This document shows positions 44,419 to 47,070 of a DNA stretch of 64,000 nucleotides, piece after piece. This DNA is from Gimesia maris. GTDB taxonomy: Bacteria; Planctomycetota; Planctomycetia; Planctomycetales; Planctomycetaceae. A program made the position numbers and the translations under genes. Within the stretch, counting starts at the first letter, position 1. Every line of letters begins with the position of its first letter. The notes below the pieces were generated by a model. It worked only from the letters and a program-made list of their open reading frames with translations, searched no databases and had not been told where the DNA came from. The DNA is taken from NCBI RefSeq assembly GCF_008298035.1, contig NZ_CP042910.1, positions 7,378,001-7,442,000 of the forward strand, in the 5' to 3' direction.

Positions 44419-47070
44419 ATGGAACTTCATCAACAAATTGACATTCTCTGGATTTTGGTCTGCAGTCTATTTGTCCTGTTTATGCAGGCTGGTTTCTGTT
44501 GTCTGGAATCTGGTCTTTCCCGCTCTAAAAACAGTATTCACGTCGCCATAAAAAATGTCGTCGACGTCAGTATTGTGGGGATCCTGTATTGGATATTCGG
44601 ATTTGGCCTGATGTTTGGTACGACAACGGGTGGGTTAATCGGCACCACTCATTTCCCGTTCACGAATTCCGGTTCCGATATATTTCTATCCGCGTTTTTC
44701 CTGTTTCAACTGATGCTGTGTGTGACTGCCGCCACCATCGCTTCCGGCGCCTCAGCCGAACGGATGCGCTTTACCGCTTATCTGATTCTCTCAATCGTGC
44801 TGGGCGGGATCATCTATCCCGTGTTTGGACACTGGGCCTGGACCAGTCATTTCACCGGAAAAGCGCCCGGCTGGCTGGAGTCTTTGGGATTCCGGGATTT
44901 CAGTGGTTCGACAGTCGTCCATTCACTGGGAGCATGGGCAGCGCTGGCATCGATCATGATTATCGGACCTCGAATTGGAAAATTCGATAAACAATCCGGT
45001 TCAAAAAAATTGAAGGGGCACAATCTGACCCTCGCGACAACGGGTGTCTTTATCCTCTGGATGGGCTGGTTTGGATTTAACGGCGGAAGTGAGTTTGGTT
45101 TTACATCGCATGTACCGCAAATCTTTATTAATACTTTTCTGGCGTCTGCCTGTGGTGCCATCACAATGCTGGTGTGGCAATTCTATCAGAAGAAACAGAT
45201 CGAAATCGAAAACATACTGAATGGTCTGCTGGCAGGCCTAGTCGCCAGCAGCGCCAGTTGTGATGCGGTCTCGCCTGCAGCTGCTGTGGTGATTGGAATT
45301 ATCGCAGCGATCGTCATGGAAGCGGGTGTCTGGGTTCTGGAGCGTTTCCAGCTCGACGATACGATCGGCGTGATTCCCGTGCACGGTTTTGCGGGTGTCT
45401 GGGGTACTCTGGCGGTCGCATTGTTTATTCCCGCCGAGCTCCTGTCACATTCCCGATGGGAACAGTTTCTGATCCAGTTACTGGGATGTGGCGTCTGCTT
45501 CATCTGGTGTTTTTCTTTCTGCTGGGTCACTTTACGGATCATCAGTCATTTTGTTCGACTGCGTGCAACCAAAGATGAAGAAAAGCTGGGTCTGAATATG
45601 GCAGAGCATGGTGCCACTTCAGAAATGTATGACTTGTTGAATCTGATGGAACTGCATATCCAGGGAGATACCGAGCTGGGAGATGACATGGACGAATACA
45701 GCGATGTCAGCCTGATTGCAAAACAATACAACAGGGTTTCACAAGTACGGGATCTGGCTTTAAATGAACTGAAAGACCGGACGGAAAATCTGGAATTAAC
45801 CCGTCGTGAACTGGAAGAAAAAGCCGAACGACTGAAACAGGCCAATACCGATGCGGAGGCTGCCTCGCGGGCGAAGAGTGAATTTCTGGCGAATATGAGT
45901 CATGAAATCCGGACGCCGATGACTGCCGTCCTGGGATACACCGATTTGCTGATTGAAGAAAGCTGGGGCCGCCCGGGCAGCATTCAGTTACTGGACGTGA
46001 TTAAACGTAACGGGCATTACCTCCTGGAACTGATCAATGACATTCTCGACCTCTCCAAAATTGAATCGGGAAATCTGACGATCGAAACCATTCAATTTTC
46101 CCTGCTGGAAAAAATGAAAGAAATCCAGTCACTGATGAAAGTCAGGGCGGAACTCCGGGGATTGCACTTTAAGCTGTCATTTGAGGGTACCCTCCCGGTT
46201 GAGATTCAGAGTGATCCGACACGACTCAAACAGATTCTGATCAACCTGATTGGGAACGCGATCAAATTCTCACCCGATGGGGGAAAAGTTTCAGTGGAAA
46301 CATCGTTTTTAAATTCTTCTGCTGATAATCCCCTGCTGGAATTTAAAATCAGTGACACGGGTATCGGCATGACAGCCGAGCAGATTGCCATGCTCTATCA
46401 ACCGTTTGTCCAGGCGGACTCTTCCACCACGCGTAAGTTTGGTGGAACCGGCCTGGGACTGGCTATCAGCAAGCGACTGGCCGAGATGCTGGGTGGCGAT
46501 CTGACGTGTGAAAGTGTGCCTGGTGAAGGTACCGTCTTCACGCTGACCATTGGCATTGGCAACCCGGAAACACTGAAGTTTCATGAAAATCCACAGGACA
46601 AATTCAGACAGATACCAGTGATCCAGCAAGATCCGGAATTGCCTGCAGGTGATTCAGAAACAATGAATCTGGGCCCCTGTACTGTCCTGCTGGCAGAAGA
46701 TGGTGTTGATAACCAGCGTCTGATTTCCATGTTGCTGAAAAAAGAGAAAGCGCATGTGGTACTGGCTGAAAACGGCGACATCGCAGTCAGGCGGGCACTG
46801 AATGCCGAACAACAAGGCAAACCGTTTGATGTCATTCTGATGGATATGTCGATGCCGGTCCTGGATGGATATGGCGCCACCAGAAAACTGCGTGAACTGG
46901 GAATCGAGACTCCCATCATCGCCTTGACCGCGCATGCCATGACCGGGGATCGGCAGAAATGTATCGACGCCGGTTGCTCGGATTATGCAACCAAACCGGT
47001 CAACCGGGAGAAGCTCCGCAACATCATTCTGAAATATCGATCGCGTGCACAGGCAGAGCCGGTCACGTAA
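44419..47070 (+). CDS. Ammonium transporter-type sensor hybrid histidine kinase (Amt-HK-REC)
   Basis: This 883-residue membrane protein joins an ammonium transporter domain to a kinase and receiver. Residues 1-385 form the Amt domain (about eleven helices): MQAGFCCLESGLSRSKN, WFGFNGGSEF, Asp160 and His168 in RDFSGSTVVHSLG, and His322 in IPVHGFAGVWG keep the twin-His pore and binding Asp of AmtB. LGLNMAEHGAT leads into a coiled coil (440-485). The kinase has His495 in FLANMSHEIRTP, IGNAIKF, DTGIGM and GTGLGLAISKRL. The receiver (about 755-875) has Asp809 in ILMDMSMPVLDG and Lys859. A planctomycete Amt-kinase (Ks-Amt5 of Kuenenia) senses ammonium without transporting much of it. No output regulator gene is adjacent. 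Confidence 0.95.
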   Translation: MELHQQIDILWILVCSLFVLFMQAGFCCLESGLSRSKNSIHVAIKNVVDVSIVGILYWIFGFGLMFGTTTGGLIGTTHFPFTNSGSDIFLSAFFLFQLMLCVTAATIASGASAERMRFTAYLILSIVLGGIIYPVFGHWAWTSHFTGKAPGWLESLGFRDFSGSTVVHSLGAWAALASIMIIGPRIGKFDKQSGSKKLKGHNLTLATTGVFILWMGWFGFNGGSEFGFTSHVPQIFINTFLASACGAITMLVWQFYQKKQIEIENILNGLLAGLVASSASCDAVSPAAAVVIGIIAAIVMEAGVWVLERFQLDDTIGVIPVHGFAGVWGTLAVALFIPAELLSHSRWEQFLIQLLGCGVCFIWCFSFCWVTLRIISHFVRLRATKDEEKLGLNMAEHGATSEMYDLLNLMELHIQGDTELGDDMDEYSDVSLIAKQYNRVSQVRDLALNELKDRTENLELTRRELEEKAERLKQANTDAEAASRAKSEFLANMSHEIRTPMTAVLGYTDLLIEESWGRPGSIQLLDVIKRNGHYLLELINDILDLSKIESGNLTIETIQFSLLEKMKEIQSLMKVRAELRGLHFKLSFEGTLPVEIQSDPTRLKQILINLIGNAIKFSPDGGKVSVETSFLNSSADNPLLEFKISDTGIGMTAEQIAMLYQPFVQADSSTTRKFGGTGLGLAISKRLAEMLGGDLTCESVPGEGTVFTLTIGIGNPETLKFHENPQDKFRQIPVIQQDPELPAGDSETMNLGPCTVLLAEDGVDNQRLISMLLKKEKAHVVLAENGDIAVRRALNAEQQGKPFDVILMDMSMPVLDGYGATRKLRELGIETPIIALTAHAMTGDRQKCIDAGCSDYATKPVNREKLRNIILKYRSRAQAEPVT

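Follow-up and report, generated by a model that had tools for sequence, protein, structure and literature searches.

To our knowledge, few ammonium receptors have been characterized so far. One protein of known structure (8qj3, 8qj4, and 8qpf) is Sd-Amt1 of Shewanella denitrificans, in which an Amt domain is joined through HAMP to a diguanylate cyclase. A relay of related layout is RpfC/RpfG, which consists of a hybrid kinase with a receiver and an Hpt domain plus a REC-HD-GYP regulator. For Ks-Amt5 of Candidatus Kuenenia stuttgartiensis (PDB 6eu6), the published report describes ammonium-dependent kinase activity and an ammonium site, with phosphorylation going up at low and down at high ammonium; it also mentions that Amt modules joined to other domains had been noted before 2018 (PMC5764959). 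Among the matches listed from the open-licence PMC literature, no title named an Amt-hybrid-kinase protein.

We analyzed a window of 64 kb (G000:C1:7378001-7442000) from a single-contig genome of 7.82 Mb. One of its genes, here called A, appears to encode an Amt receptor. Such receptors are a known class, and we did not find this hybrid-kinase form described among the papers listed in our literature searches. The gene is a single unbroken frame from an ATG at 44419 to a stop codon ending at 47070, and Pfam resolves its architecture into the domains given in Table 1. The Amt/Mep/Rh match (Ammonium_transp) is full length, with E 2e-114 and 382.8 bits against a curated cut-off of 23.2, and includes D160 and the twin histidines. 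The fusion that a sequence-only reading of the window had proposed is real: there is no break between Amt and kinase, and 14 of 17 genomes of the genus carry the gene as one open frame.

Table 1. Features of gene A, in window positions
Feature	Position	Strand	Basis
Gene A, Amt-HisKA-HATPase_c-REC hybrid kinase, 883 aa	44419..47070	+	reading frame, Pfam
Amt domain (PF00909), residues 10-400	44446..45618	+	Pfam, alignments
GLN motif, residues 391-393 and on	45589..45606	+	alignment of Amt rows
Linker, residues 397-484: HAMP-like segment (at family level only), then a probable helix to the kinase	45607..45870	+	
HisKA, residues 485-551, phospho-acceptor His495	45871..46071	+	Pfam, alignment
HATPase_c, residues 599-711, N-box N613, G boxes	46213..46551	+	Pfam, alignment
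REC (Response_reg), residues 756-870, phospho-acceptor Asp809	46684..47028	+	Pfam, alignment

The catalytic part has everything expected of a hybrid histidine kinase, as the same reading had stated: an H-box histidine (H495 within SHEIRTP), N and G boxes, and a receiver with its acid pair (E760/D761), phospho-acceptor (D809 within MDMSMP), T837, and K859. H495, N613, D809, T837, and K859 are identical in 9/9 A orthologs.

Gene A was found in 15/17 genus genomes. In one of them (G437:C1:3840370-3841739) it is divided over two frames, which reflects either a gene that is broken or an error in sequencing. Of the two remaining genomes, G443 shows a partial extra match and G439 no match. The same genes flank A in all eight loci compared, mean pairwise identity of the Amt domain among nine orthologs is 0.87 (36 pairs), and its median omega is 0.043 over 13 of the 36 pairs, the others having been dropped as near silent-site saturation. 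Given this conserved occurrence, flanking order, and identity, together with the low omega, the sequences indicate that A is held under purifying selection and is no chance fusion. No Rfam family reached its gathering score within the window. A sigma-54 promoter 5′ of gene A was considered and rejected, one pattern sought on the gene's strand matching 0/9 upstream regions; the best conserved stretch upstream lies far from A, on the side of carB (named by inspection).

The source genome yields four Amt matches: A, a second fused gene (B), and two stand-alone Amts, one of them AmtB-like and beside two PII-like genes (PII names by inspection), the other of a different type. Gene B, about 103 kb from A, encodes an Amt-PAS-HisKA-HATPase-REC protein of 989 aa that is 51% identical to A over the Amt domain and 49% over kinase and receiver. 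It is present in 14/17 genus genomes and was undetected in G281, G440, and G442, all three of which have A (completeness 99, 74, and 96). Counting the split gene, A and B co-occur in 12/17.

We placed A among its relatives with a tree of 99 Amt domains, selected from 136 by removing near copies and part of the stand-alone rows. A single clade of moderate support (SH-aLRT 87) holds 55 of the 56 fused rows, among them one with an unrecognized tail (L047), together with a single row that stands alone; this receptor clade is joined at support 99 by four stand-alone proteins. A, B, and L095 group together (support 99), and the clade includes both Ks-Amt5 and the 8qj3 protein. Its fusion partners comprise HisKA, HisKA_2, and HisKA_3 kinases, hybrid kinases, GGDEF, GGDEF-EAL, SpoIIE, and MCP domains.

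Several of these fusions, and some outside the clade, are observations in their own right. Six proteins of Pelagibacteraceae (SAR11; L011, L013-L016, and L064) join an Amt to a SpoIIE-type phosphatase domain, assigned by Pfam in L011, L013, and L015 and by home-made HMM in the others, and represent a receptor with a phosphatase output. Amt-MCP fusions occur at L012:6860-9172, L030:6884-9154, and L032:1922-4171 and in L128, L130, L136, L140, and L143, the hosts being Vibrio sinus and Orenia (Pfam) and Halonatronum and planctomycetes (home-made HMM). Because L030 falls outside the receptor clade, this kind of fusion arose more than once. In Crenothrix polyspora (L021:6914-13425), a sister-group Amt without a fused partner is followed after 0.8 kb by a hybrid kinase and a REC-GerE regulator, an arrangement that is a possible split form of the receptor.

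Ks-Amt5, offered by the sequence-only reading as the precedent, does belong to the same clade but is not the nearest solved relative: A scores 307 bits against it and 398 bits against the 8qj3/8qpf protein, the latter over residues 10-450, running through the linker. The linker after the GLN motif aligns to that of 8qj3 (linker profile, E 3e-15). With an E limit of 1, HAMP was matched by the linkers of 17 of 28 family members (the best at 1e-4), with no match, by Pfam, in A's own linker. The 8qj3 protein has the same site residues except for Phe in place of T51, and differs from A in its Phe at the outer gate (Leu in A) and presumably in its output, a cyclase where A has a hybrid kinase. With Ks-Amt5, A shares planctomycete origin, a C-terminal HisKA-HATPase kinase, the residues of the site within the membrane (Q, E, N, D, T, and T/S), and a loop 5 of equal length (G183-N202 in A, G186-N205 in Ks-Amt5, aligned without gaps). 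It differs in its receiver, in its linker, which is longer and belongs to the HAMP-like family, and in single residues: the outer Phe gate is Leu and T51 is Val. At the plug, where Ks-Amt5 has the bulky residues F27, Y30, and F34 that block the pore, A has F26, L29, and L33; the same letters occur in many other receptors.

A thus combines a transducer in the same chain with the site residues, membership in the clade, and the long loop 5 of an Amt-type ammonium receptor. Its putative ammonium site is formed by Q23, E30, N46, D49, T106, and S109; in Ks-Amt5 numbering it retains Q24, E31, N47, D50, and T109, so that five of seven site positions are identical, with T112 replaced by Ser and T51 by Val (V50). 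E. coli AmtB shares with A the Amt fold, Asp160, the His pair, and the Trp/Ser entrance, but reads TYVTFGV at the seven positions (no Ks-Amt5-type site) and has no output domain; the site is likewise absent from the PII-linked AmtB of the source genome. Since A lies in the receptor clade and keeps these residues, direct sensing of ammonium, as proposed before, appears to be the best reading of the gene.

How far the site residues by themselves mark a receptor is another matter. They have been described as an ammonium site that assimilatory Amts lack. In our alignment, all five (Q, E, N, D, and T) occur in 49/54 receptor rows, the five exceptions being of the HisKA_3 type, and also in 44/63 stand-alone rows. 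This count left out 9 of 126 rows (four duplicates, one truncated, the independent fusion L030, L047 with its unclear tail, and two of AmtB type). The stand-alone rows came mostly from a similarity search with A and B in which one of the two patterns includes the site Gln, and are thus a near and slightly biased sample, while the receptor rows include near copies. With 44 of 63 stand-alone Amts carrying the same residues, these were rejected as a sufficient test of sensing. Judged from the alignment, Asn393 in the GLN motif marks receptors better: it is present in 54/54 receptor rows, and of the 62 stand-alone rows readable at this position, 61 have Asp (GLD).

Asp160, His168, and His322, which the earlier reading had picked out as the residues that bind and pass ammonium, are invariant in 136/136 Amt domains with no loss in the alignment, and A also keeps the entrance residues W141 and S224. 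These retained residues would suit a working transporter whose own flux, rather than ammonium binding, drives the kinase, and E. coli AmtB is reported to be fully active with its outer Phe changed to Leu (PMC6856177). Kept motifs do not imply passage, however: Ks-Amt5 keeps all of them and is reported not to translocate ammonium efficiently (PMC5764959). The genome has two stand-alone Amts available for uptake, and we regard a flux-driven kinase as unlikely.

Around this pore the entrance of A is altered, so that the claim of kept residues holds for Asp160 and the two histidines and fails at three positions: Leu100 takes the place of the outer-gate Phe, Ser162 that of Ala, and Ser278 that of Thr. 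All 15 A genes, the split one included, have the three changes; none of the 14 B genes has them, and every B gene carries the common residues. When the 136 domains were compared as 9 A and 127 others, position 100 was Phe in 126 of the others and Val in one (L148), position 162 was Ala in all 127, and position 278 was Thr in 125, the two exceptions, L165 and L148, having a Cys and a Ser between them. Separately, L148:135-4082, an Amt-PAS-HK-REC-REC gene on a short contig, has both Phe gate positions altered (Val and Leu).

According to one study, the outer Phe is part of the AmtB S1 site, and Ala162 is a proposed guide of the substrate through its backbone carbonyl (PMC10433425). Because the proposed role of Ala162 runs through the backbone, the effect of Ser162 is uncertain and may be small. 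For the same reason, and because AmtB stays active with Leu at the outer gate, the entrance of A is altered yet not plainly dead, with B as the standard form in the same cell. The ligand of A, or its range, may nevertheless differ, near-invariant positions being changed.

One version of such a difference, which we think rather improbable, is that A no longer reads only ammonium and has turned into a receptor for a different amine or into a subunit that modulates B in mixed trimers. The fixed changes in A and their absence from B fit this idea, as do the 12 genomes that hold both genes and the trimeric state of Amt proteins (PMC5764959). Against it stand the retention of the intramembrane site and the three genomes that have A and no detected B, which suggest that A can probably work alone. 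On the preferred reading of A as an ammonium receptor, the entrance would be re-tuned relative to B, probably for another ammonium range.

The likely course of the signal can be approached through planctomycete relatives. We assigned architectures, by home-made HMMs and Pfam, to 33 planctomycete receptor loci that lie outside the genus, chosen among the best and longest matches listed and thus not a census. Twelve encode Amt-PAS-HK-REC-REC-Hpt proteins (some with two PAS domains), one has REC and Hpt (L096), two have two receivers and no Hpt that we found (L134 and L148), and seven have a single receiver (L095, L133, L137, L138, L139, L142, and L145); the remainder are four kinases without a receiver, two HisKA_2 kinases, and five MCP fusions. 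The attached receiver, which the sequence-only reading had treated as setting this protein apart, is therefore not unusual, since 22/33 loci have one or two.

A REC gene immediately follows the receptor gene in 11 of the 12 REC-REC-Hpt loci (the exception being L093); it has the same orientation and, taking the nearest likely start, begins 1-154 nt after the stop codon. All eight regulators scanned by Pfam (seven of these 11 and that of L146) have REC and HD_5, and an alignment of all 11 keeps the HD and GYP motifs. Membrane sensor, HK-REC-REC-Hpt, and neighboring REC-HD-GYP resemble RpfC/RpfG, with an Amt as the sensor domain instead, and judged by these domains the group most likely acts by changing c-di-GMP. 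Other regulators also occur: that of L165 combines REC with a KaiC-like ATPase rather than HD-GYP, and those of L133 and L150 are receivers alone. No linked REC-HD-GYP was detected beside the seven single-receiver loci.

Further loci show other arrangements. In all five of HisKA_3 type (L022, L027, L038, L065, and L081), the Amt-kinase gene precedes a REC-GerE regulator, and a stand-alone Amt comes next. The Amt-kinases of these loci have Thr or Ala where the site Asp would be, and the layout is the one expected for a sensor controlling ammonium uptake. The Amt-HK-REC gene at L138:7840-10494 (same genome as L008) reads EKEIRKPM in place of SHEIRTPM in its H-box and lacks the acceptor His, making it a likely pseudokinase by its sequence that retains the receiver Asp. 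At L134:5121-17900, an Amt hybrid kinase is clustered with separate Hpt, REC-GGDEF-EAL, and REC-GGDEF genes (home-made HMMs), which again points to c-di-GMP.

Gene A departs from RpfC/RpfG and from the long relatives in that its genome has neither an Hpt nor a REC-HD-GYP gene attached or adjacent to it: no Hpt was found in the chain or the window, and no REC-HD-GYP gene in the chain, the window, or the genome. In line with the earlier claim of no linked partner, home-made HMMs applied to stop-to-stop frames of at least 80 aa found no further REC, Hpt, HisKA, or HATPase frame across the window, and no Hpt or regulator was found within 16 kb around B. Five HD_5 matches in the source genome include none that shares a frame with a receiver match; there are also six GGDEF matches and six Hpt matches, two of the latter in short stand-alone frames. 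Either this lineage has lost the REC-REC-Hpt tail or it never acquired one, and the tree is compatible with both.

A receiver with no Hpt or regulator nearby could serve to draw off phosphate or to restrain the kinase, with no relay downstream, and the single-receiver forms outside the genus are mostly without linked Hpt or regulator too. Yet the receiver of A is closest to the second, Hpt-proximal receivers of the relatives that have Hpt and REC-HD-GYP (31-47% identity, versus 19-28% to their first receivers), and the genome has its two stand-alone Hpt genes. We consider a sink or brake improbable and a relay to an unlinked partner the better reading.

Co-occurrence, suggested earlier as a way to find such a partner, was examined for both stand-alone Hpt genes. 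The 104-aa orphan Hpt (L151) has matches in 40/61 family genomes with E up to 0.001. Matches below 1e-15 occur in 11/61, among them G018, where no long Amt frame was among the matches listed, and L151 was rejected as a specific partner. The other, L152, encodes an Hpt of 127 aa and is followed 45 nt later by a REC gene of 198 aa; it has matches up to 0.001 in 43/61 family genomes, and below 1e-30 in only two, both members of the genus. By frame length alone, the first kind of Hpt is present in 16/17 genus genomes and the second in 14/17. L152 is the best lead to a partner of A. A and B are similarly confined (their nearest kin is L095 in G002), but this co-occurrence amounts to one event, which makes the lead a weak one.

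Taken together, we think it probable that A is a receptor kinase with Amt as its ammonium sensor, a relay to an unlinked partner, and a re-tuned entrance (Leu100, Ser162, and Ser278). Periplasmic ammonium would enter the vestibule, cross the twin-His region, and settle in the acidic intramembrane site; occupancy of that site would shift the C-terminal GLN motif and the HAMP-like linker, and their movement would set kinase activity at His495. Phosphate would then pass to Asp809 within the same chain and from there to a separate, unlinked Hpt and regulator. In a group of other planctomycetes, the relay would be completed in one chain (REC-REC-Hpt) and end on the neighboring REC-HD-GYP protein, whereas the source genus would use its unlinked partner in place of that tail.

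A broader and much more tentative picture, which we hold to be doubtful, is that planctomycete Amt receptors front an ammonium-to-c-di-GMP relay and that the genus rebuilt it as the short pair A and B, reading two ammonium ranges (perhaps as mixed trimers) and both feeding one Hpt specific to the genus, for which the Hpt next to the REC gene at G000:C1:6335247-6336272 would be an example.

The apparently new features are the fixed entrance variant in A and the linked REC-HD-GYP output in its relatives. Within the wider clade, stand-alone Amts commonly carry the site residues, so that either these proteins bind ammonium there too or the residues are insufficient for sensing. The entrance variant is a natural one that stands beside a standard paralog within the same cell. 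The linked REC-HD-GYP genes make the signaling role testable in planctomycetes, and across this locus and the related ones a single Amt lineage acts as the receptor for outputs of several types.
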